Positions 13,144 through 25,315 of a DNA stretch of 32,159 bases are shown piece by piece (within the stretch, counting starts at the first letter, position 1; the number at the start of each line of letters is the position of its first letter). Origin of the DNA: an uncultured Deinococcota bacterium (GTDB lineage Bacteria; Deinococcota; Deinococci; Deinococcales; Trueperaceae); contig CAMZLP010000067.1 of assembly GCA_947311535.1 (NCBI GenBank), forward strand, positions 1 to 32,159, given 5' to 3'. A model generated the notes under the pieces. The model worked only from the letters and a program-made list of their open reading frames with translations, was not told where the DNA came from and did no database searches. Both the position numbers and the translations under genes were made by a program.

Positions 13144-14166
13144 ATGTTTGATAAAAATACTGATGAGAAAACTAATTCTCATATAAAAACCCCACCTGTT
13201 CTTTTTGATGCTACTCAAAGAATCATAGCTGAGATAGAAAATATTACCGCTAAAAAGTTGCTAAGTTATTGGACATCTCATAGTGGTGGAGTTTGCCAAA
13301 ATGATGTTATTGCCCTTTATGAAATATTAGAAAATTTGGACGGTCAAGGTGAGCTTGTACTATTTATTAAATCTCAAGGTGGAGATGTTGAAGCGGCTTT
13401 GCGAATTGTTCATTTAATAAGAGAGAAATATACTAATGTAACTGCTTTGGTTGCGCTCGAGTGTGCCTCGGCAGCTACTATGATTGCCCTTGGTGCTAAC
13501 CGTATAGAAATGGGTCCTATGGCTTATATTACAGCTGTTGATTCATCATTGCGGCACTCGATGTCACCAATAGATAATACAAATTCTCGGGTTAGTGTTT
13601 CGCAAGATGAAGTCTCGCGCATTATTAGTCTTTGGGATGAAAGCGCCAATGAAAGCCATGCCAACCCCTACAGCGAATTATTTAAATATGTACACCCACT
13701 AGTAGTCGGTGCGCTTGATCGCTCGAGCAGTTTGTCGGTAAAGATTTGCAAAGAAATACTCTCTTATCATATTACTGATACTGAATTAGCCGAAAAAATC
13801 AGCTTTACCCTAAATTCTAATTATCCTTCACATGGCTACCCTATTACTGCCAAAGAAGCTAAGAGCATAGGTTTAAATGTTCACGCTATGGATGCTAAAT
13901 TAAATAAGCTTCTGCTCGAGCTAAACGAACACTACTCAGAAATGGCACAACGTGCTGTAACTGATAGAGATGAGTTTAACCATCATGATAATGAGATATT
14001 AAATATTATTGAAGGCAAGGATATTCAAATATATTATCAAAATGATAAAGATTGGCACTATATCCAAGAGGAGCGTCGCTGGCGCACTCTAAACGATGAG
14101 AGCTCTTGGCGCAAGATTCAAAATAAAAATGGTGAAAAGAAGTTTTCTCGTTTACATATGAGGTAG
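13144..14166 (+). CDS. ClpP-fold serine protease of the SDH (serine dehydrogenase proteinase) family
   Basis: A 340-residue cytoplasmic protein with the ClpP/crotonase fold seen in SppA and SDH-type proteases (PF01972-like). The oxyanion glycines are IKSQGGDVEAALRI (75-88). The nucleophile is likely S109 in ECASAATMIALGANRIEMG (106-124). A later block, PSHGYPITAKEAKSIGL (228-244), matches the family, and H184 (VHPL) or H230 may be catalytic. There is no signal peptide or membrane segment. The last ~70 residues are hydrophilic and end in a W/R/K-rich tail (WRTLNDESSWRKIQNKNGEKK). The start is preceded by AGGAGG and a strong promoter. It faces two clpS genes, so a link to ClpS/N-degron turnover is possible but unproven. 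Confidence 0.8.
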   Translation: MFDKNTDEKTNSHIKTPPVLFDATQRIIAEIENITAKKLLSYWTSHSGGVCQNDVIALYEILENLDGQGELVLFIKSQGGDVEAALRIVHLIREKYTNVTALVALECASAATMIALGANRIEMGPMAYITAVDSSLRHSMSPIDNTNSRVSVSQDEVSRIISLWDESANESHANPYSELFKYVHPLVVGALDRSSSLSVKICKEILSYHITDTELAEKISFTLNSNYPSHGYPITAKEAKSIGLNVHAMDAKLNKLLLELNEHYSEMAQRAVTDRDEFNHHDNEILNIIEGKDIQIYYQNDKDWHYIQEERRWRTLNDESSWRKIQNKNGEKKFSRLHMR

Positions 14167-14281: not shown

Positions 14282-14575
14282 TTATTCAGGCTCGAGCATA
14301 CAGCTAAGAGGATAACCTTTGTTACTGGCATCTTTCATTGCTTGGTTGGCCTTAGTTTCTGCAATTTCAAAACTGTAGACACCAGCTACACTTACGCCAC
14401 CTTGATGAGCCTCGAGCATGACTTTGTTAGCAGCAATGTCATCTAAGCCAAAATAACGCTTTAAAACATAAAGTACAAAGTCAACTGGGGTATAGTCATC
14501 ATTTATTATCAAGACCTTGAATTTTGGCGGCTCAAGAGTTGTGGTTTTGGTTTTCTTTAAAGTCTCTGTACTCAT
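14282..14575 (-). CDS. clpS: ClpS adaptor, second of a tandem pair
   Basis: A 97-residue N-recognin adaptor that docks on ClpA-type ATPases and delivers N-degron substrates. The core PPKFKVLIINDDYTPVDFVLYVL (residues 16-38) aligns with E. coli ClpS, including the amino-terminus-binding Asn-Asp and the later conserved His in EAHQGG. The C-terminal block VAGVYSFEIAETKANQ matches the ClpA-contact region. The specificity gate residue, Met40 in E. coli, is Val here. Its ATG shares one base with the stop of the preceding clpS (TAATG), so the pair is translationally coupled. Confidence 0.93.
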   Translation of the reverse strand: MSTETLKKTKTTTLEPPKFKVLIINDDYTPVDFVLYVLKRYFGLDDIAANKVMLEAHQGGVSVAGVYSFEIAETKANQAMKDASNKGYPLSCMLEPE

Positions 14576-14868
14576 TATTCCTTCTCTACTACTGCTCTAA
14601 ATGGATGGCCAGCCTTTTGAGCGCTTGTTATAACCTGATTTGCTTTTGTCTCGGCAACTTCGTGCTCATAGACACCTGCTAATACAATACCCTTTTGATG
14701 CACATCCAAGGTAAGCTTGTTTGCTTCTGCTTCTGATTTACCAAAAAATCGTACCAGCACAAAAACTACAAAATCCCAAGTTGTGTAGTCATCATTTAAT
14801 AAAAGCACTTTGTACATTGGTGGCTTGGTGGTTTTAGTTTTGGTTTTAGTTTTGGTGTCTGTTGCCAT
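14575..14868 (-). CDS. ClpS adaptor, first of a tandem pair, divergent
   Basis: A 97-residue ClpS-family protein upstream of the canonical copy. The N terminus is a low-complexity TKTKTKTKTT tail, comparable to the flexible N-terminal extension of ClpS. The core PPMYKVLLLNDDYTTWDFVVFVL retains the Asn-Asp pair, and DVHQKG retains the His. The usual TPM is replaced by TTW, putting a bulky Trp at the gate position. VAETK of the ClpA-facing end is conserved. This suggests a paralogue with a different N-terminal-residue preference, as in organisms with ClpS1/ClpS2 (inference). Confidence 0.9.
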   Translation of the reverse strand: MATDTKTKTKTKTTKPPMYKVLLLNDDYTTWDFVVFVLVRFFGKSEAEANKLTLDVHQKGIVLAGVYEHEVAETKANQVITSAQKAGHPFRAVVEKE

Positions 14869-15103: not shown

Positions 15104-15607
15104 CTATTTTTTCTTTGTCAAAATCTTATAAATAATAAATCCAAAAAAAGCACTTATCCCAATTGAAAAGTAAATGGGTATATGCTTTAAAATCACAAAT
15201 ACTACAATTAAAATTGCCAAAATTGTTGGTACTTCGTTGTAAGCCCGAAAGAATTGACCACTTCTTGTACATTTATCTGCTAATAAGACCTTTCTAAAGT
15301 ATTCTAAGCTATAAGAATAAGCTATCAAAAAGACCAATACTATAAGCTTGGCCCACATCCAATTTTGGCTAAGCAGAGCGGGGTTTAGTAGCAACATGCT
15401 CGTACCGCTAATAATGGTTGCCCACATAGCAGGCATACCAATTACTTTGTAAAGCATGCGTTCTTGGGTTTTAACAACTGTTGTGAAGTCTTTTTTGTCT
15501 TTGTTTTCTTGATGATAAACATATAACCTAGGTAGATAAAAGAGCATGGCCATCCAGCTCATCCAAGACATAATATGAAAAAATAAAATCCATCTGTAAT
15601 ATTGCAT
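15104..15607 (-). CDS. hemJ: Protoporphyrinogen IX oxidase, HemJ type (membrane)
   Basis: Oxidises protoporphyrinogen IX to protoporphyrin IX in the inner membrane, passing electrons to the quinone pool in this family. A 167-residue polytopic protein with the UPF0093 signature: the conserved His (H11), SWMAMLFYLPRLYVYH (17-32), the conserved Lys (K87) in WMWAKLIV and RAYNEVPTILAI (121-132). It is slightly longer than the ~140-residue norm, with an extra C-terminal hydrophobic segment (KHIPIYFSIGISAFFGFIIYKIL). It starts 5 bp after the hemH stop and is the last gene of the heme operon. Neither HemY nor HemG is present in the window. Confidence 0.93.
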   Translation of the reverse strand: MQYYRWILFFHIMSWMSWMAMLFYLPRLYVYHQENKDKKDFTTVVKTQERMLYKVIGMPAMWATIISGTSMLLLNPALLSQNWMWAKLIVLVFLIAYSYSLEYFRKVLLADKCTRSGQFFRAYNEVPTILAILIVVFVILKHIPIYFSIGISAFFGFIIYKILTKKK

Positions 15608-15612
15608 TTTAG

Positions 15613-16668
15613 CTACCTAAATGGCCTTATTATTTGTCGGCATTGCTCATTTGTACAGCCTGGGCATTTTAGTTTGTATTGCTGCGAATACAGCTCATTT
15701 AATTTTAGATGCTTGTTTACAATGTGGGCAAGTGCTTCTATGAAATCTTGCGAAGCGTTCATAGCGGGGGCACGTTTAAAATTGATAATGCCTTTTTTGG
15801 CAGCGAGTTCAGCGTATTCTATATCTAATTCATGCAGGGTTTCTATGTGATCACTTGTAAAAGCAATTGGCACTACTAATACATTTTTATGGCCTTGTTC
15901 AGCTAGTTTTTCTATTACTGACTCGGTGCTTGGACCCTGCCAAGGTACTGGTCCTACCTCTGACTGATAGCTGAGAATGTAGCTATATTTATAGTCTAAT
16001 TGCTTCATGACTTCGTGCACGCTTGCTCCAATTTCGGCCGGATATGGGTCACCCCTTTTTATTATGTTTAATGGCAAAGAGTGGGCACTAAATAATATAA
16101 CTGGCTCTTGCTCGCCAAAGCCTTCTAAGCCTTGCTTTACGGTTTTAGTCATAGCTTTTATAAAACCAATATCACTGCCCCAGCGGTCAATTATGCTCCA
16201 AGAAAATGCATCTTCCAAATTCAAATATTTGCTTGCTCGCCATAGTTCATTTAATGATGAGCCAGTAGTAGCACAGCTGTACTGAGGATATTGAGTGAAA
16301 GCAATAGCACGGTTTACTCCGTCTGCTTTCATGGCTTTTAGTGCATTTTGAGAGTCTGGCTTAGCATAGCGAAAGGCTACATAAAATTTATGTGGGGCAG
16401 TCTCGGGTGAAATCTGGTCTAATATATCCACCATGCCTTGAGCTTGCTTATTGGTCCAATCCAAAATTGGTGAACCGCCACCAATATCAAGGTAGTTTTG
16501 TTGGACTGCTTTTACTCGTTTTTTGGCAATAAATGGACCTAACAAATCTTGGGCTGGTAATTTTATTATTTCTCGATCATTAAAAAGCTCGAGCAAAAAG
16601 GGGGCAACCTCAGCTAAGTTTTTGGGCCCTCCCAGATTTAACATGACTATTGCTGTTTTTACTGACAT
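15613..16668 (-). CDS. hemH: Ferrochelatase with [2Fe-2S] cluster ligands
   Basis: Inserts Fe2+ into protoporphyrin IX, the last step of heme synthesis. In 351 residues it shows the family blocks LGGP (12-15), QYPQYSCATTGSSLN (126-140), the catalytic histidine H196 in SAHSLP, and FTSDHIETLHELDIEY with E276. Four cysteines match the ligands of animal-type [2Fe-2S] ferrochelatases: C132 (QYSC) and the C-terminal C335-x2-C338-x4-C343 (KCPGCTNEQCR). The protein looks strikingly close to mitochondrial enzymes along much of its length. It follows hemN by 28 bp. Confidence 0.96.
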   Translation of the reverse strand: MSVKTAIVMLNLGGPKNLAEVAPFLLELFNDREIIKLPAQDLLGPFIAKKRVKAVQQNYLDIGGGSPILDWTNKQAQGMVDILDQISPETAPHKFYVAFRYAKPDSQNALKAMKADGVNRAIAFTQYPQYSCATTGSSLNELWRASKYLNLEDAFSWSIIDRWGSDIGFIKAMTKTVKQGLEGFGEQEPVILFSAHSLPLNIIKRGDPYPAEIGASVHEVMKQLDYKYSYILSYQSEVGPVPWQGPSTESVIEKLAEQGHKNVLVVPIAFTSDHIETLHELDIEYAELAAKKGIINFKRAPAMNASQDFIEALAHIVNKHLKLNELYSQQYKLKCPGCTNEQCRQIIRPFR

Positions 16669-16696: not shown

Positions 16697-18049
16697 TCAT
16701 ATCGTCATAGAAAATATTCTGGTAGAGGGTTTAGAGGCATGTAGTTTTAAATCAAAAGCCATGCAGATATTTCTTATAAATACTCGGCCCTTTTCGTTTA
16801 CAATGAGCTTTTTGTCTTTAATTTCTAATAAATCATCAGATTGCATTTCTTTTAGCCTTTCTAAAATAGCAGGCATTTCTGCTAGCTCCATATTTTTCTC
16901 TTGCCAACTGGTTTCTAAGCTGCACATAAGCTCAAGAATATGCTTGCGTACTCGCAAATCGGTTTCATCTAAAAGATGGCCGCGGAAAACGGCCAATTCA
17001 TTATTGTCAATTCTTTGGTAGTAGTCAGCTAGGCTTTTTTCATTTTGAGCAAAGCCATACCAACTATCAGAAATTGCTGACATACCTAGGCCAATCATCA
17101 ACTGCGTTTTGGACGATGAATAACCCATAAAATTGCGGTGAATAGTTTTATTTTTTAGGGCAAGGCTCAAGCTATCATCAGCCAATGCAAAATGATCCAT
17201 GCCAATTTCTAAATAGCCTGCTTCATTTAACATGGCTTTACTAAGTTCATAAAGATGTCTTTTCTCGTCGTCATGAGGTAAGTTTTTTTCTGAGAATTTG
17301 CGTTGGCCGTTGCCTTTTATCCAAGGAACGTGGGCATAGCTATATAGGGCAATGCGGTCGGGCATTAATTCTAGAGTCTTTTTAATGGTAAAATGCATAT
17401 CCTCGGCATTTTGAAAAGGCAAACCATAGACTAAGTCATGATTAACCGAGCTAAAGCCTAGCTCACGTGAAGTGCTAGTTACAAATTCAACATTTTCAAA
17501 TGACTGAATTCGGTTAATGGCAATTTGAACTTTTTCGTTATAGTCTTGCACGCCATAGCTAACCCGCCTAAAGCCCAAATCTGCTAGAGTTTGCAAATGC
17601 TCTTTTGTGGTGTTATTGGGGTGGCCTTCAAAACTAAATTCAAATTCTTTGCTTTGTTTACTACCTTCTAAGAGACCTTTGATTAGCTTATCTAGGTTTT
17701 TAGCAGAAAAGAACGTGGGTGTTCCACCACCCAGATGAATTTCTTTGATAACAGGAGCTTTGTCAAAATTATTTTTGTAAAGTTGCCATTCTTTTAAAAG
17801 ATAATCTATATAAGGCTCTTCTTCTTCGTGGTTTTTTGTTATGTGCTTAAAGCAGGCACAAAATGTGCATAAGCTCTCACAAAATGGCAAGTGAATATAT
17901 AAGCTGATTTCTTGAGATTCAGCAAAAGACTTCTTTACACTTTTTAACCAATCATTATGAGCAAGTTTGCCCTTATCCCAATAGGGGACAGTAGGATAGC
18001 TGGTATAGCGGGGCCCGGGGACATTGTATTTTTGAATTAGTTTAGACAT
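16697..18049 (-). CDS. hemN: Oxygen-independent coproporphyrinogen III oxidase
   Basis: A radical-SAM enzyme that decarboxylates coproporphyrinogen III to protoporphyrinogen IX without oxygen. The 450 residues match E. coli HemN length. It has the N-terminal GPRYTSYPTVPYW, the cluster motif C57-x3-C61-x2-C64 with the extra C66 (CESLCTFCAC), GGGTPTF, and the C-terminal HemN domain. The full-length N terminus and four-Cys motif argue for true HemN rather than the heme chaperone HemW. Its start overlaps the hemE stop by 8 bp. No oxygen-dependent HemF is in the window, so the pathway could run anaerobically at this step. Confidence 0.95.
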   Translation of the reverse strand: MSKLIQKYNVPGPRYTSYPTVPYWDKGKLAHNDWLKSVKKSFAESQEISLYIHLPFCESLCTFCACFKHITKNHEEEEPYIDYLLKEWQLYKNNFDKAPVIKEIHLGGGTPTFFSAKNLDKLIKGLLEGSKQSKEFEFSFEGHPNNTTKEHLQTLADLGFRRVSYGVQDYNEKVQIAINRIQSFENVEFVTSTSRELGFSSVNHDLVYGLPFQNAEDMHFTIKKTLELMPDRIALYSYAHVPWIKGNGQRKFSEKNLPHDDEKRHLYELSKAMLNEAGYLEIGMDHFALADDSLSLALKNKTIHRNFMGYSSSKTQLMIGLGMSAISDSWYGFAQNEKSLADYYQRIDNNELAVFRGHLLDETDLRVRKHILELMCSLETSWQEKNMELAEMPAILERLKEMQSDDLLEIKDKKLIVNEKGRVFIRNICMAFDLKLHASKPSTRIFSMTI

Positions 18050-19082
18050 TTATAAGCCCTAGCTCTTGTCTGGCTTTATCACGGTCAAAATTTTTGACAA
18101 AGTCCACTAGATATTTGGCTTTCTCAGGGTCGCTTTGTCGCATAATGCCGTGGCCCAGATTAAAGATATGAGTACCACCAAGACCACTTATCAAAACATC
18201 TTGAGCTTCTTTGGCTATGAGCTTCTCTGAAGCCAATAAAACAGCTGGGTCTAGGTTGCCCTGAATTACTTTAGTGGGCAATAATGGCCTGACTTTATCA
18301 ATTGGAACTCGCCAATCAATACTTATTACTTCAGCAGAGAGCTGATTTATTTCTGAATATAAGTGTAGAGCATCTACGGCAATATACAAACGTGGGATTT
18401 GGTATTTGCCTAAAGCCTTAAAAATACGCTCATTATAAGGTTTGGCAAATTCACTGTAAATTGCTGAACTATGAATACCTGCCCAAGAGTCAAAGAGCTG
18501 AATAGCCTGAGCACCCGCTTCGATTTGCATGCTTAAGTAGTCTATTGATAAGTCAGTCAGTTTGTCTAAGAGCTTATGGGCTTGCTGAGGGGCATAGCGT
18601 AAAAACTGCCTGAACTCAGCGTAATCTTTGCTGCCACTACCTTGGATAAGATAAGTTGCCAAAGTGAGCGGTGCGCCTCCAAAGCCGATTAATGGAGTCT
18701 TGCTTTCCTTTCTGATTAGCTTGATGGCCTCGGCAACAAAGGGGGCGATTTCTTCTTTTTTTGGTTTTAAAAGTTTGTCAATGGCTGTTTGTGAGCGAAG
18801 TGGTGATTCTATAACTGGCCCTGGGGAAAAATCAATTTTTATGCCCATAGAGGGTAGTGGAGTCATAATATCTTGAAATAAGATAGTTGCATCTACGTCA
18901 AATCTTTTAACTGGTTGCAAGCTCACTTCGGCAGCTAAAGCCGGGGTACGACACATTTCCCAGAAATTGGATTTTTCTTTAATTGCTAGGTACTCAGGCA
19001 AATATCTGCCGGCCTGACGCATCATCCAGATAGCTGCCTTATTGCCATTTTTGCCAAAAGCAGTGTCTATAAATAAACTCAT
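18042..19082 (-). CDS. hemE: Uroporphyrinogen III decarboxylase
   Basis: Removes four carboxyl groups from uroporphyrinogen III to give coproporphyrinogen III. The 346 residues are typical. The N-terminal signature MMRQAGRYLPEY lies near residues 19-30. It is followed by VKRFDVDATILFQDIMTPL with the substrate-binding Asp, and by GFGGAPLTLATYLIQG and IQGNLDP later in the chain. Its start overlaps the response-regulator gene by 4 bp (ATGA-type), and its end overlaps hemN by 8 bp. Confidence 0.97.
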   Translation of the reverse strand: MSLFIDTAFGKNGNKAAIWMMRQAGRYLPEYLAIKEKSNFWEMCRTPALAAEVSLQPVKRFDVDATILFQDIMTPLPSMGIKIDFSPGPVIESPLRSQTAIDKLLKPKKEEIAPFVAEAIKLIRKESKTPLIGFGGAPLTLATYLIQGSGSKDYAEFRQFLRYAPQQAHKLLDKLTDLSIDYLSMQIEAGAQAIQLFDSWAGIHSSAIYSEFAKPYNERIFKALGKYQIPRLYIAVDALHLYSEINQLSAEVISIDWRVPIDKVRPLLPTKVIQGNLDPAVLLASEKLIAKEAQDVLISGLGGTHIFNLGHGIMRQSDPEKAKYLVDFVKNFDRDKARQELGLINV

Positions 19083-19750
19083 TCTTGTCTTCCTTTGGGG
19101 TTGAATTTATAACCTTTGCCTAAAATACTGCAAAAGTATTGGGGTTTATTGGGGTTTGTTTCAAATATTTCTCTTAGTTTGTTGACCTTTCTTTCTATGC
19201 TCAAGCTGCTGGGGTAGATGCCATCTTGCCAGACTGTTTCTAAAATTTCTTCTCTTTTAATCAGTTGCTTTGGCTTAGATGCAAAGAGTCTAAAAATACC
19301 GATTTCATGCTCGCTTAAATACTGTTCTAGTTTGTTTTTGTTGATTGCTTTATAGTTTTTGTAGTCTACGAGATGACCGTCAAAAGAGTATTCATGTTTG
19401 CTACTACTTGCTAATAGATTTTCGATACCGTTAATTATAAGCTGGATTTCTTGCTCGTTTTTATGATTGATATTATTGCTAATTGCCTGAATTTTGTGCT
19501 TTTCTGAATTTATGAATAAGACTTTGCTTTGGTCATTTTCTTCTTTCATGATTTGGCAAATGTCTAAACCGTTTAGCTGTGAGAGATTGATATCTAAAAT
19601 GACTAAGTTGGGCTTAGTATTTTGCCATAGGGCTAGTCCTTGGGCTGCTGTGGGGGCTTGCTCGAGCCTGATCGAAGTATTATCCAAGTAGTGAATTATT
19701 TTTTCTTTTATACTCTTGTGTTTGCTAATAAGTAATATAGTATGCAGCAT
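19079..19750 (-). CDS. OmpR-type response regulator with degenerate receiver, inside the heme operon
   Basis: 223 residues: an N-terminal receiver-like domain (about 1-113) and a C-terminal OmpR/PhoB winged helix (about 130-220) with VNKLREIFE and ILGKGYKF near its end. The phospho-acceptor-position Asp is present (D53 in LVILDINL). The acidic pair normally after strand 1 is replaced by SKH, and the Ser-to-Lys interval (S82 to K97) is shortened. Phosphorylation may therefore be weak or absent. It follows hemB by 6 bp and overlaps hemE by 4 bp, so it is made with the pathway enzymes. It may regulate the operon in response to heme, a porphyrin or redox (inference). No histidine kinase is nearby. 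Confidence 0.82.
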   Translation of the reverse strand: MLHTILLISKHKSIKEKIIHYLDNTSIRLEQAPTAAQGLALWQNTKPNLVILDINLSQLNGLDICQIMKEENDQSKVLFINSEKHKIQAISNNINHKNEQEIQLIINGIENLLASSSKHEYSFDGHLVDYKNYKAINKNKLEQYLSEHEIGIFRLFASKPKQLIKREEILETVWQDGIYPSSLSIERKVNKLREIFETNPNKPQYFCSILGKGYKFNPKGRQE

Positions 19751-19756
19751 GATTTA

Positions 19757-20779
19757 TCAGTCTAGCCAGCCCTTCTCTAAGGCTTCTAGGGCGTAATAAG
19801 TAATTATTAAATCAGCCCCAGCTCTTTTGATTGCTGTCAAAGCTTCATGAACTGCTAATGGCTCATCTAGAGAGCCAATTTTGGCGGCGGCTTTAAACAT
19901 TGCATATTCACCACTTACGTTATAAGCAACTAAAGGCAAGCTAGTTTGTGGTCGTAAACGTGCTAAAACATCTAAATAGGGCAGAGCTGGTTTGACCATG
20001 AGCATATCAGCACCTTCTTCTTCGTCTAATTTGGCTTCTCTAAAGGCAGTTCGGACATTACGGTAGTCCATTTGATAAGTTTTACGGTCTTTGGGCGGGC
20101 TAAATTCTTGCTCTAAAGATTTATTTGGTGATGAGCCAGCAGCTTCACGAAAAGGGCCATAAAATGCTGATGCGTATTTGACCGCATAAGACAAAATACC
20201 CACATTATTAAAGCCTTGGCTATCTAAGCTTTCTCTAATTGCCCCAACTCGGCCATCCATCATATCAGATGGTGAGACAATATCAGCACCGGCTTCGGCG
20301 TGCATAACCGCCATTTGGGCCAAATGCTCTAGGCTGCTGTCGTTGTCGATAATATAGCCTTGCGAGGTCTTTTTTAAAATCCCGCAGTGACCGTGGTCGG
20401 TATAGCCACACAAGCAGACATCAGTTATCAAATTGATATCACTGCCAAAAGCAGCTTTGGCAGCTCGCAGAGCAGTGGCAACGGGGCCATTATGGTCATG
20501 CGAGCTCTTACCTAAAGCCGATTTTTGTTCTGAATCAACTACTCCAAATAAAACTGCCGAATTAATACCTAGCTTTAGGGCTCTCTCTAAGTCTTTTAGT
20601 AAGTTGTCGGTGCTAAGGCGGTAAACATTGGCTAAAGATTTTATGGCTTGCTTTTGATTTTTGCCATCGACTACAAAAAATGGGGCGATTAAATCGTTTG
20701 CTCCAACCGAGATTTCAGCCAGAGAGTTTCTTAATGCCTGATTTAAGCGTAAACGGCGGGGTCTTTTAGTTATTTTCAT
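19757..20779 (-). CDS. hemB: Delta-aminolevulinic acid dehydratase (porphobilinogen synthase)
   Basis: Condenses two 5-aminolevulinate molecules to porphobilinogen. 340 residues. The Schiff-base lysines are K201 (LSYAVKYASAFYGPFREA) and K263 (MLMVKPALPYLD). The metal site DVCLCGYTDHGHCG holds C122, C124 and C132, the zinc-binding three-cysteine form rather than the aspartate/Mg form. The start overlaps hemD by 4 bp. Confidence 0.97.
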   Translation of the reverse strand: MKITKRPRRLRLNQALRNSLAEISVGANDLIAPFFVVDGKNQKQAIKSLANVYRLSTDNLLKDLERALKLGINSAVLFGVVDSEQKSALGKSSHDHNGPVATALRAAKAAFGSDINLITDVCLCGYTDHGHCGILKKTSQGYIIDNDSSLEHLAQMAVMHAEAGADIVSPSDMMDGRVGAIRESLDSQGFNNVGILSYAVKYASAFYGPFREAAGSSPNKSLEQEFSPPKDRKTYQMDYRNVRTAFREAKLDEEEGADMLMVKPALPYLDVLARLRPQTSLPLVAYNVSGEYAMFKAAAKIGSLDEPLAVHEALTAIKRAGADLIITYYALEALEKGWLD

Positions 20780-21441
20780 AATAATCCTTCTATGGTTTTA
20801 ATTATTGAATTGACACTTGGCTCCTTTGCCATATAGCTTTGCCAGCCTTTATTTGCAATTGCTTGGGCAGTAGTACTGCCAATTGAGATTAGTTTGGCTT
20901 GGCTTAGTTTTGGGGGCAGGGCATCAACCGCCGAGGGGCTAGCCAAGAGCACAATATCGGCTGATTTGCAAGTAATTTTTCTTTTGGCAGTGAGATAAGC
21001 AGTGAGTGAGCGGTATTCAATATTATTTGCTTTCAGGCCTTGCTCTAAAATATTTAATGACAAATTTCCTTTTATGATTCCTACGGGAGCTTGTTTGTCG
21101 GGGTGCTGCAAAAAACTATCCAAGAGGCCTTTGGCATTGGCTGTTTGTGCTATTATTTCTGGCTTTTTATATTTTAACAGGGCTTTGGCAGTGCTTTTGC
21201 CAACTACTGCCAGACGGCTATTAAAAGGCATTTTTAAGTAATGCCAAAATTCAATTGCCTTAGAGCTGCTAAAAAATAGCCAAGGATAATTCTGGATTTT
21301 TTTGGCCTCGTTATAACTATGATTACCTAAAACTAAGGCAGTAGCTATAAGAGCTTGATGGACTACTTTTAAACCTAGTTCTTCTAGTTTAGGCTCGAGT
21401 CCAAGCAATTTCCCTTCAGATTGAGTTAGTAAGATTTTCAT
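20776..21441 (-). CDS. hemD: Uroporphyrinogen-III synthase
   Basis: Closes and inverts ring D of hydroxymethylbilane to make uroporphyrinogen III. 221 residues, slightly short of the common 240-260. Sequence in this family is weakly conserved, but the two-lobe pattern and the late blocks VLLASPSAVDAL and LISIGSTTAQAIANKGW are recognisable. The position between hemC and hemB, with 4-bp overlaps on both sides, strongly supports the call. Confidence 0.9.
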   Translation of the reverse strand: MKILLTQSEGKLLGLEPKLEELGLKVVHQALIATALVLGNHSYNEAKKIQNYPWLFFSSSKAIEFWHYLKMPFNSRLAVVGKSTAKALLKYKKPEIIAQTANAKGLLDSFLQHPDKQAPVGIIKGNLSLNILEQGLKANNIEYRSLTAYLTAKRKITCKSADIVLLASPSAVDALPPKLSQAKLISIGSTTAQAIANKGWQSYMAKEPSVNSIIKTIEGLL

Positions 21442-22331
21442 TTTTCCTCTGTATGGGGAGATGGCCTCCCTAGTGCGTCATAGACCAAGTGGGCCAAATA
21501 TTCGATATTTGCTTCTTCTTTTTCAACTAGAAGCCCGTCATAATAGGCGAGCATTTTTAAACCCTTGCTAGTGGCAAATGCATGAGCCCCAAGAGCAAGT
21601 TGGCAGCCACCTTGTAGCATAGCCATCAGGCCACGTTCAGCAGAAATAGCTTTTTGACTAGGGATATGATTGAGGCTATTTAACAAAAAATTGAGTTCAA
21701 GCTCATCTCTTTGTATTTCTAAGGCAAGAGCACCTTGGGCTGGGGCTGGCACGATAAGCTCGGGTTCTAAATACTGCAAAATCAAGCCATCGGTATTTAC
21801 TGAAATCCGCTCTATGCCGGCAGCCGCCAAGACAATGGCATGATATTGCCCAGCCTGAAGTTTTTTGACTCTATTAGGTACGTTGCCACGCAATTCTTTT
21901 ACTTCTAAATCAGGCCTTAGAGATAAGATTTGGGCTTTTCTTCTGGCGGCACTTGTGCCTACAGAAGCATTTGGTAGTATTTTTAGTTGCTCGTTTTCTT
22001 TATAAAATTCTTTTCTAATCAGTAAAACATCTCTGGGGTCAGCCCGCTTGGTAATTGCAGCCAGCTCGAGCCCAGCGGTTTGCAAACTAGGTAGATCTTT
22101 AAATGAATGCACTGCAATATCAGCTTTTTCTTCTAAGACGGCTTGCTGAATTGCTTTGGTAAAAAAGCCCTGACCATCTAAGTTCATAAATGGCTGATAA
22201 TTTCTATCGCCCTGAGTTTCTATTAAAACTAGCTCGCTTTTTCTACCTAGTTTTGCTAACTCAGACTTTAACCAATTGGCTTGCCACAAAGCCAGCTCAC
22301 TTTTACGGCTGGCAATTCTAATTGTTTTCAT
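21438..22331 (-). CDS. hemC: Porphobilinogen deaminase (hydroxymethylbilane synthase)
   Basis: Polymerises four porphobilinogens into hydroxymethylbilane. 297 residues. N-terminal RIASRKSELALWQA, ETQGDR (38-43), HSFKDLP with catalytic D79, SVGTSAARRKAQ, and the dipyrromethane-cofactor cysteine C243 in LQGGCQLALGAHA. Its start overlaps the end of hemA by 14 bp and its end overlaps hemD by 4 bp. Confidence 0.97.
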   Translation of the reverse strand: MKTIRIASRKSELALWQANWLKSELAKLGRKSELVLIETQGDRNYQPFMNLDGQGFFTKAIQQAVLEEKADIAVHSFKDLPSLQTAGLELAAITKRADPRDVLLIRKEFYKENEQLKILPNASVGTSAARRKAQILSLRPDLEVKELRGNVPNRVKKLQAGQYHAIVLAAAGIERISVNTDGLILQYLEPELIVPAPAQGALALEIQRDELELNFLLNSLNHIPSQKAISAERGLMAMLQGGCQLALGAHAFATSKGLKMLAYYDGLLVEKEEANIEYLAHLVYDALGRPSPHTEEK

Positions 22332-23481
22332 TGGCTAGTAATCCCGAAGCATTTAAAAAAACTTTGGCAGCATCTAGACCATATTCTCGGGCTAAGGCCC
22401 GCAAGCCTTTGCTGGGGATATGGGCAAATTTGTGAGCCAAGCGTTGGGCATCATCTGCTGCTAAGCTATCCGAGATGGTCTCGGTATAGAGGTTGCGTAA
22501 ATTACTAATAATAGGGCCAAGCTCTTTTCCTGCCCAATCATCAAGAGCAATTATTAGCTCTGCCTGAATTATTAATTCAGCTTGGGCAAGCTTATCAATT
22601 AGTTTTTGCTGCCTTAGTTGGCCGGCTTCTTTTAAGCTGTCAACATCTAAAATTAGGGCTTGGGTCTCAGGCTTTGGAGCCAAGTTTTTAGGAATACCAA
22701 GATCAACAATTATTTCTAAATTATCTAATTGCTCCAAAATTTGCTTAGTTATAAGAGATTTTATAGGGGTTGCTAAAACCAGTATTTCATTATTGACTGG
22801 GTTTTGCAGATATTCGGCTAATGAGATTGCGTGGCTGTTTAGGTTATTTGCTAATTTTTGAGCATTTCCCAAGCTTCTATTGACTACTAATAATTCAATA
22901 TTTTTTAAAGAAGCCAGCGACTTGGCGGCCAAACTGCCCATTTCACCGGCTCCAATCACTGTTGCTGTTTTGGGGCTTGTGGTTAGCTTTTCTATGCTTG
23001 GTCTGGCTAGGCTAAAAAGGGAAGTATTTAGTGGGGCTAGCTTTACTTCTCTTCTTATTTTTTTAGCAACACTAAAGGCGGTCTGAAAGACAAATGATAG
23101 CTTCTTGGCTACGGTATTTCTGGCTTTTGCTTCGGCAAAGGCTTGTTTTACTTGATTCATTATCTGGTCTTCGCCAGGATTTAATGAATCAAGTGATGAT
23201 GTAATTCTAATCAATTGCTCTAAAGCAGCGTCAGCACTATAAGCATAGAGTTGCTGAGGCTTGTTTTCTAGTTTTAATGACTGCCTAAATTCTCGAACAT
23301 CCAAATTATTAGGTAAAACTGCTACTAAATCCCAGCGATTACAAGTAGAAATTAGTACCCATTCTTTTATACTACCGAGTTTAGATTGCAAGACATCTAT
23401 ATTGAGAGTACTTTGGTAAGACTCGAGCTCAATCGAAGAACTTTTTTTATGAGAGATACCTAGTAGTACTAATCTTTTCAT
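22318..23481 (-). CDS. hemA: Glutamyl-tRNA reductase
   Basis: Reduces glutamyl-tRNA to glutamate-1-semialdehyde with NADPH, the committed step of the C5 heme pathway. 387 residues. The active-site cysteine C47 lies in ISTCNRWDLV; the residues after CNR are W-D where T-E or V-E are common. LNPGEDQIMNQVKQAFAEA and the dinucleotide fold VIGAGEMGSLAAKSL are clear. The C-terminal dimerisation region is short. The 4-bp overlap with hemL fits the known physical partnership of the two enzymes, which channels the labile semialdehyde. In many bacteria this enzyme is heme-feedback regulated. Confidence 0.95.
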   Translation of the reverse strand: MKRLVLLGISHKKSSSIELESYQSTLNIDVLQSKLGSIKEWVLISTCNRWDLVAVLPNNLDVREFRQSLKLENKPQQLYAYSADAALEQLIRITSSLDSLNPGEDQIMNQVKQAFAEAKARNTVAKKLSFVFQTAFSVAKKIRREVKLAPLNTSLFSLARPSIEKLTTSPKTATVIGAGEMGSLAAKSLASLKNIELLVVNRSLGNAQKLANNLNSHAISLAEYLQNPVNNEILVLATPIKSLITKQILEQLDNLEIIVDLGIPKNLAPKPETQALILDVDSLKEAGQLRQQKLIDKLAQAELIIQAELIIALDDWAGKELGPIISNLRNLYTETISDSLAADDAQRLAHKFAHIPSKGLRALAREYGLDAAKVFLNASGLLANENN

Positions 23482-24770
23482 AGTTTTATCTCGGCAAAGG
23501 CTTGCTCGGCTGCAGCAATTACTTGATCTATCTCAGCTTCGCTATGGCTATAAGAAATAAAGGCGGCTTCAAAGGCACTGGCTGGCCAATAAATACCACG
23601 TTTTAAGAGACCATGAAACCACTGCTTAAACTGTTCTTTATCGCTTGAAGAAGCAGTTTTTAAATCAACTACTTTTTGCTCGCTAAAAAAGACAGTAATC
23701 ATAGAGCCAACTCGGTTTATGGTGATGGGCACATTGCTGTTTTTGGCAGCTTTTAATAGGCCCTGCTCGAGCCTATTCCCCCGAGCTTCTAAAACTTCAT
23801 AGAAATCAGGCTGTTTGTCAATTTGATTAAATGTTTCAATGCCCGCGGCCATAGCTAAAGGGTTGCCGGAGAGCGTGCCTGCCTGATAAACCTTGCCAAC
23901 TGGTGAGACTTGCTTCATGAATTTGGCTTTGCCACCATAAGCCCCAACTGGTAAGCCACCACCTATTATTTTGCCCCAACAGACAATGTCAGCGTCGATA
24001 TTGTAGCGTTCTATTGCTCCGCCAGCAGCTAATCTAAAACCAGTCATTACTTCGTCAACTATCAATACAGCTGAGTACCGGTCAGCAAGATTTCTTAAGC
24101 CAGTTAGAAATTCGGGGCTTGGTTCTACTACGCCCATATTGCCTACAACAGGCTCGAGTATAATTGCAGCAATCTCATCGGGTCTTTCTAGAAATAGTTT
24201 TTCAACACTACCTAAATCGTTGTAGTTGGCAACTAAAGTAGTTTTGGCGGTGTCATTTGGAACTCCAGCACTAGATGGTACACCAGTAGTAATTGCCCCA
24301 GAGCCAGCAGCTACTAATAGTTGATCGGCGTGGCCATGGTAGTTGCCAGCAAATTTAATAAAATAATCTCGACCAGTAGCAGCACGAGCTAATCTAATAG
24401 CACTCATGGTTGCTTCAGTGCCTGAGTTTACAAATCTTATTTGCTCAGCTTTTGGGTATTTTTTTAATACCGCTTGAGCCAGTACAATCTCATTTTGAGT
24501 GGGTGCACCAAAGCTTGTACTTTTGCTAGCAGCATTTTGAATGGCTTTAATAACATCTTCTTGAGCATGGCCTAAAATCATTGGCCCCCAAGAGCTAACC
24601 ATGTCTATATATTCATTATCATCTTCATCCCAAAGGCGGCTTGCTTTAGCTTTTTTTATAAATACTGGGGTCCCTCCAACGCTGCCAAAGGCTCGAACCG
24701 GTGAATTTACGCCACCTGGTATTAGTTTGTTAGCCTTTTGAAATAATTCTTTTGATTTGTCGAAATTCAT
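23478..24770 (-). CDS. hemL: Glutamate-1-semialdehyde 2,1-aminomutase
   Basis: A PLP enzyme that converts glutamate-1-semialdehyde to 5-aminolevulinate. The start is taken as ATG 24770 (MNFDKSKELF), giving 430 residues; a TTG at 24797 lies upstream of the GGAGGT ribosome-binding site and is rejected. Typical blocks are LIPGGVNSPVRAF, SGTEATMSAIRLARAATGRD, NYHGHAD, LIVDEVMTGFR and the PLP lysine in CWGKIIGGGLPVGAYGG. It is the first gene of the heme operon, with a possible TATAAT about 95 bp upstream. Confidence 0.97.
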   Translation of the reverse strand: MNFDKSKELFQKANKLIPGGVNSPVRAFGSVGGTPVFIKKAKASRLWDEDDNEYIDMVSSWGPMILGHAQEDVIKAIQNAASKSTSFGAPTQNEIVLAQAVLKKYPKAEQIRFVNSGTEATMSAIRLARAATGRDYFIKFAGNYHGHADQLLVAAGSGAITTGVPSSAGVPNDTAKTTLVANYNDLGSVEKLFLERPDEIAAIILEPVVGNMGVVEPSPEFLTGLRNLADRYSAVLIVDEVMTGFRLAAGGAIERYNIDADIVCWGKIIGGGLPVGAYGGKAKFMKQVSPVGKVYQAGTLSGNPLAMAAGIETFNQIDKQPDFYEVLEARGNRLEQGLLKAAKNSNVPITINRVGSMITVFFSEQKVVDLKTASSSDKEQFKQWFHGLLKRGIYWPASAFEAAFISYSHSEAEIDQVIAAAEQAFAEIKL

Positions 24771-24797
24771 ATTGTTTTTATTACCTCCAAAGCCCAA

Positions 24798-25315
24798 AAT
24801 GGGTTTTATGGTTTAACATAATAAATAAGATGATTATTGAAATTGTCACAAATATGTTTGCTGCAAATCAATTATAGTGAAATTTGTTTGCTAGCTACAG
24901 TGTTTTTGCTAAATATGTGGTCAATTTAATAATATCTTTAACTAAGACGATTAAGAGAAGAGGCAAATAATGAGAGTGCGCAAAAATAATCTTGCCTTTT
25001 TTTTAATAAACATCTAAGAAAATTTTAAGCCAAAGTTTAACTATTACCTAGCTACTTTAGTTGTAGATGGCGATAGTCCAAAGCATTACTCTAGTCGGGG
25101 TGCTTGCCCTTGTTTAGGCTCGTGTAGATTTTATAGATTGCTTTTATGTTAATTAAAGTTTATGGCAAATTGAAATTTTAGGAGTGGAACTGGGTATCAA
25201 TATTAATAGAATTGGCTGTAGCTGTGGTTTCTAGCAATTCACCCCAAAGGCTATCCAAAGGCTATGTCAGGTAATTAGCTAAACTTTCATAAATTAGGAG
25301 TAGGCTTAACAAATA
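24798..25315. other. Divergent 518-bp gap upstream of hemL
   Basis: No supported gene. A minus-strand TATAAT at 24871-24876 is a tentative hemL -10 without a good -35. AGGCAA (24961-24966) and TTGCCTTTTTTTT (from about 24993) could pair across a 26-nt loop. A degenerate palindrome relative, TTTAGGCTCGTGTAG, lies at about 25113-25127. The 11-mer CCAAAGGCTAT is repeated near 25243-25264. The gap is long enough for regulatory sites of the heme operon. Confidence 0.4.

Follow-up and report, generated by a model that had tools for sequence, protein, structure and literature searches.

Two described kinds of system come closest to the regulator considered here. In Leptospira, the HemKR two-component system regulates heme genes through HemR, an OmpR-type regulator whose phosphorylated form binds the hem-box TGACA-N6-TGACA, and the system responds to 5-aminolevulinate through its kinase (PMC11426443). 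Atypical regulators with pseudo-receivers constitute the other kind and include HP1043, ChxR, RitR, WhiI, and CmrT (PMC12632262, PMC4395418). Mixed dimers (WhiI/BldM) and models based on interaction or expression level (CmrT) provide precedents for their action, and the switching mechanism of pseudo-receivers is still debated as an open question (PMC12632262). HemKR and pseudo-receivers are already known kinds. In the non-subscription literature searched, "hem-box" and "heme biosynthesis" occurred together only in the Leptospira paper, no paper joined HemKR with Deinococcus, and neither HemKR in Deinococcota nor an orphaned HemR paralogue was found. Leptospira HemKR was also sought in plasmid records, and none was found.

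The DNA analyzed here, referred to as the window, is a 32,159-nucleotide stretch (contig C67) of a 2.72 Mb Deinococcota genome that is 92% complete. The exact box described in Leptospira stands before hemA in Deinococcota operons with an orthologous regulator, and kinase and regulator are paired in relatives; the comparison with Leptospira covers box and gene setting. The window copy, unlike HemR of Leptospira, has no adjacent kinase, no receiver chemistry, and a different recognition helix. Like the atypical regulators, it lacks several of the five residues that receivers conserve, and like HP1043 and ChxR it has an OmpR/PhoB-type output domain, but it differs from them in keeping the phospho-acceptor Asp, in having an intact paralogous pair in the same genome, and in sitting within a heme operon. 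With the canonical Deinococcota arrangement hemB-kinase-regulator-hemE it shares the slot and the two-domain family, but not the complete receiver and the near-invariant recognition helix that mark the canonical members. The comparison would extend HemKR-like control, including the binding box of Leptospira, to Deinococcota heme operons.

The regulator in the heme operon

The regulator is part of a tightly packed minus-strand operon with the order hemL-A-C-D-B-[regulator]-E-N-H-J (Table 1). Pfam recognizes both of its domains above the gathering thresholds (Response_reg, 2.7e-12; Trans_reg_C, 7.1e-12), and this combination of receiver and winged helix, also seen in the structure model and by Foldseek, assigns it to the OmpR/PhoB type. 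Its place among the heme biosynthesis genes, between hemB and hemE, is that of a HemKR-like regulator, but its neighbor 6 nt away is hemB and not a cognate kinase.

Table 1. Features of the heme operon and its embedded regulator, in window positions.
Feature	Position	Strand	Basis
Degenerate HemR-like OmpR-type response regulator, 223 aa	19079..19750	-	ORF, Pfam, ortholog set
Receiver domain, residues 4-117, pseudo-receiver	19400..19741	-	Pfam; structure model
Residues 9-11, Ser-Lys-His in place of the (nearly) invariant Glu-Asp-Glu of relatives	19718..19726	-	
Asp53, kept phospho-acceptor position	19592..19594	-	
Asn81 at Ser/Thr position	19508..19510	-	
Residues 83-98, shortened alpha4-beta5, K-P-F motif lost or displaced	19457..19504	-	alignment; low model confidence
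Winged-helix DNA-binding domain, residues 120-217	19100..19393	-	Pfam; model; Foldseek
Recognition helix, residues 182-196, diverged DNA-facing residues (SLSIERKVNKLREIF vs SRTVDNFVMRLRKLF)	19163..19207	-	alignment; model
hemL, first gene of the operon	23478..24770	-	ORF list; search query
hemA	22318..23481	-	
hemC	21438..22331	-	
hemD	20776..21441	-	
hemB, stop 6 nt ahead of regulator start	19757..20779	-	
hemE, ATG in 4-nt overlap with regulator stop	18042..19082	-	
hemN, oxygen-independent coproporphyrinogen oxidase	16697..18049	-	TIGR00538 E 2.2e-130, above cut-off
hemH, ferrochelatase	15613..16668	-	
hemJ-like protoporphyrinogen oxidase	15104..15607	-	UPF0093 E 1.3e-47; TIGR00701 just below cut-off
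Putative HemR-box-like site, weakened (CAAACATATTTGTGACAATTTC), ahead of hemL	24839..24860	-	matrix from relatives' boxes

The regulator family in related genomes

A search of 60 related genomes yielded one clear regulator family, whose neighborhood was inspected in 31. The orthologous canonical regulator adjoins hemB in 24 of these 31 genomes, usually with hemE next, and all but one of the 24 (23 genomes) have a kinase gene inserted between the two. The link to heme metabolism made in the original prediction is supported, and the family is conserved within hem operons. The hem-slot kinase of relatives is about 380 aa long, with HisKA and HATPase_c domains and two predicted membrane segments (assigned by eye), and no tested genome contains more than one close orthologue of it. 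Where the pair stands outside the hem operon, its neighbors in G040 are hemH, protoporphyrinogen oxidase-like, and hemF-like genes (named by eye), and in G007 it adjoins genes for ABC uptake of heme/B12/siderophore type (heme reading by eye). The kinase/regulator pair of relatives probably controls heme synthesis. The window gene is roughly 26-34% identical to canonical Deinococcota members.

The one exception among the 24 is G002 (L042 / G002:C28), in which an orphan regulator adjoins hemB and E-S-E replaces E-D-E. No kinase orthologue was found at E ≤ 1e-30 in this 96% complete genome. The G002 regulator retains the family helix, as the genome does the exact hemA box, and it may represent an earlier stage on the path taken by the window copy. 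An intact and a degenerate copy in one genome, with this milder orphan in a relative, constitute a natural experiment on regulator evolution after kinase loss.

The intact copy of the window genome (G000) is on contig C169, where a kinase (1018-2118) precedes a regulator (2248-2949). The kinase matches the hem-slot kinase at E 7.7e-115 with 52% identity, and the regulator shows 61% identity. GC content (0.374 vs 0.378) and tetranucleotide composition (correlation 0.988) agree, which argues that C169 comes from the same organism as the window. Among the 39 genomes of its family, only the window genome has two family members at E ≤ 1e-15. A GAF-HisKA_3 sensor kinase gene begins 3 nt after the intact pair (L032:2953-4743) and is possibly co-transcribed with it.

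In the tree, four other regulators encoded by this genome fall outside the group formed by the window gene and all HemR-like sequences (support 100/99). Its branch is extremely long and its amino-acid make-up differs from that of the family. The data allow a grouping with the C169 regulator (p-AU 0.22) and weakly favor one with G005 (93/76), both being exposed to long-branch artefact; given the long branch, the window copy may be either the gene that first occupied the slot or the product of a later duplication. A search of the genome contigs with the window protein alone returned a single, unrelated match. As judged from its sequence, the window gene is a fast-diverged HemR paralogue with a pseudo-receiver and an altered recognition helix.

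The receiver and DNA-binding domains

Residues were compared with 33 canonical orthologues in a MAFFT alignment, with family numbering (E10 to K104). In the window copy, E10 (33/33), D11 (32/33), and E12 (33/33) are replaced by Ser, Lys, and His, respectively, S82 (33/33) by Asn, and Y101 (33/33) by Lys, while D54 (33/33) is retained as D53. K104 (32/33) aligns with Gln, and a gap shift would put Lys97 at this position. The canonical receiver set D-D, D, T, and K is thus reduced to its single D, with S-K for the acidic pair, N for T, and Q or a displaced residue for K. These results agree with the original prediction that the Asp is kept and the acidic pair after strand 1 is absent. Its shortened Ser-to-Lys interval corresponds to the alpha4-beta5 deletion, but the Ser that was probably meant (S82 of the window copy) lies one residue past the true Ser/Thr position. 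With four of five active-site positions in its receiver altered, the regulator is probably phosphorylation-independent, as had been proposed. A linked histidine kinase shown to phosphorylate it would have refuted that proposal, and here the outcome is divided: a kinase is linked to the orthologue in almost all relatives, but in the window genome it is linked to the intact paralogue on another contig.

Divergence is not confined to the active site. Of the 101 alignment columns that at least 90% of the 33 canonical regulators share, the window copy matches 41; the receiver accounts for 16 of these (out of 55 columns) and the DNA-binding domain for 25 (out of 46). The latter domain had been described as apparently intact, which holds for its fold signatures but not for its recognition helix, where the family sequence SRTVDNFVMRLR has become SLSIERKVNKLR, nor for the wing, where Trp has become Leu. 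The helix changes affect R195 (33/33), T196 (32/33), D198 (32/33), N199 (31/33), and R203 (31/33). Since these residues are (nearly) invariant in the family, binding of the HemR box by the window copy is doubtful.

An AlphaFold model that drew on nine remotely related regulators encoded on viral contigs has a mean pLDDT of 74.5 and contains both folds; a single-sequence model (pLDDT 38) was discarded. In the receiver, beta1-beta4 and alpha5 are predicted, whereas alpha4 is not modeled as helical, with low confidence in that region. The winged-helix domain matches the C-terminal domains of YycF, VicR, and OmpR with Foldseek TM scores (target-normalized) of about 0.8, and the best matches of the whole model are ordinary full-length OmpR-type regulators.

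The HemR box

The box of Leptospira recurs in Deinococcota. Among 12 relatives in which the sequence ahead of hemA could be read, 10 carry exact TGACA-N6-TGACA within 120 nt of that gene, whereas dinucleotide shuffles predict 0.0045. The G016 box upstream of hemA has one mismatch. In G005 (L036 / G005:C41), which has kinase and regulator in the slot, no box was found upstream of hemA and the recognition helix is altered (SRTLERLVTRLR); the helix may have changed in step with the box. In G007 an exact box (L048:5434-5449; G007:C1:1720433) lies about 100 nt before the cluster of uptake, kinase, and regulator genes. At L035, L037 (one mismatch), L041, and in other relatives the box follows a consensus of about TGACACTTTCRTGACAC, roughly 45-50 nt ahead of hemA, and boxes are so placed across Trueperaceae-, Meiothermus-, and Deinococcaceae-like genomes. 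A -10-like TAnnnT, noted by eye about 20 nt past the second half-site in relatives, fits a directly activated promoter.

No exact box occurs in the hem promoter of the window. The candidate site there carries two mismatches to TGACA-N6-TGACA, and at this tolerance the 16-nt pattern, taken alone, turns up in the window about as often as chance predicts. When scanned with a matrix trained on the boxes of relatives, the site at 24839-24860 ranks first among 64,276 window positions, and the region 24771-25315, suggested as a target in the original prediction, holds the best HemR-box-like site of the window. The site has only one good half-site and scores 10.3, compared with 21-32 for the training boxes in a run of slightly different background. 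A HemR box is thus probably present at this promoter in weakened form.

The window genome contains just four exact boxes, one of which is intergenic and lies ahead of the C169 kinase. A second site before this kinase matches the window box at 17 of 21 nt, a likeness equaled by 3 of 60 shuffles and suggestive only. A genome search with the derived pattern, which is circular, gave two matches. Another exact box (G000:C106:2219-2234; L070:1501-1516) falls around the start of a gene that, by eye, encodes a CRP/FNR-like regulator.

Function of the operon copy

The preferred reading, to which we give about an even chance, is that the window gene is a kinase-independent modulator of HemR or the hem promoter, diverged from the HemR of an ancestral HemKR-like system. 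Beyond homology, position, and residue loss, we infer the steps of this model, including any regulatory activity. An ancestral HemKR-like two-component system would have stood between hemB and hemE in Deinococcota, and the window gene would descend from its HemR. The working kinase-regulator pair is at the C169 locus, and the operon copy has lost its kinase neighbor, the phosphorylation chemistry, and the DNA-reading residues of the family. It would act without phosphorylation and in proportion to hem operon expression, by competing for the weak box, by forming mixed dimers on it, or through a shifted DNA target. A phosphorylation-independent role is most likely because the gene is co-translated with heme enzymes and its frame stayed open. 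A narrower version is tentative and somewhat doubtful: a duplicated HemR would now be a kinase-independent, operon-embedded partner or antagonist of phosphorylated HemR, and the resulting feedback on the hem operon would be dosed by the operon's own expression, with kinase loss and receiver decay at least twice in the family (in the window genome and, mildly, in G002).

The open frame bears directly on whether the gene functions at all. When the C169 regulator was allowed to diverge neutrally to 40% identity, none of 300 simulated runs remained without a stop (mean 8.6 stops), and 38 of 45 conserved hydrophobic positions are still hydrophobic in the window copy, which argues that the frame was under selection through most of its history. 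A kept frame is compatible with present loss of function, as the early divergence may have been constrained, and the degenerate copy is seen in one genome. The slot copy might accordingly be a relic that has decayed since HemKR was duplicated or moved, regulates nothing, and stays open mainly through translational coupling to hemE. The disappearance of input chemistry along with output specificity, the extreme branch length, the deviant amino-acid make-up, and the intact pair elsewhere all fit a relic. We nevertheless consider it an unlikely account, since no stop or frameshift has arisen at about 33% identity, neutral runs do not stay open, and the hydrophobic core pattern, Asp53, and wing signatures are retained; coupling to hemE would guard against some frame damage, not all.

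Alternatively, the altered helix could read a new site and control other genes without phosphorylation. The substitution of five helix residues within a kept fold points this way, as does G005, whose changed helix accompanies the missing hemA box, but no target motif was found, and the sole direct repeat around the hem promoter, 13 nt long, has a spacing of 30 and not the usual one, which makes retargeting rather improbable. Less probable still is the one-component sensor of heme, a porphyrin precursor, or a metal that the original prediction suggested, with the ligand bound in a remodeled receiver pocket. Such a sensor would suit a gene in a heme operon, could make use of the His and Lys at the former acidic positions, and would parallel the 5-aminolevulinate response of Leptospira HemKR, though that response runs through the kinase (PMC11426443). 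The sequence gives no pointer to a ligand site and contains no recognized ligand-binding motif, the closest structures are ordinary regulators, and the family in relatives senses via a kinase. A new heme sensor was rejected as the main reading because relatives have an ordinary kinase-regulator pair in the slot; with a kinase linked to the orthologue and to the intact paralogue, the window gene is better described as a diverged two-component regulator paralogue than as a primary sensor.

Two features of the surrounding genes were also observed. In the window hemE is followed by hemN, whereas in several relatives a hemF-looking gene takes that place. Farther along the window, two adjacent clpS genes with a one-base overlap (14282-14868) lie close to a gene for a ClpP-like SDH-type protease (13144-14166).
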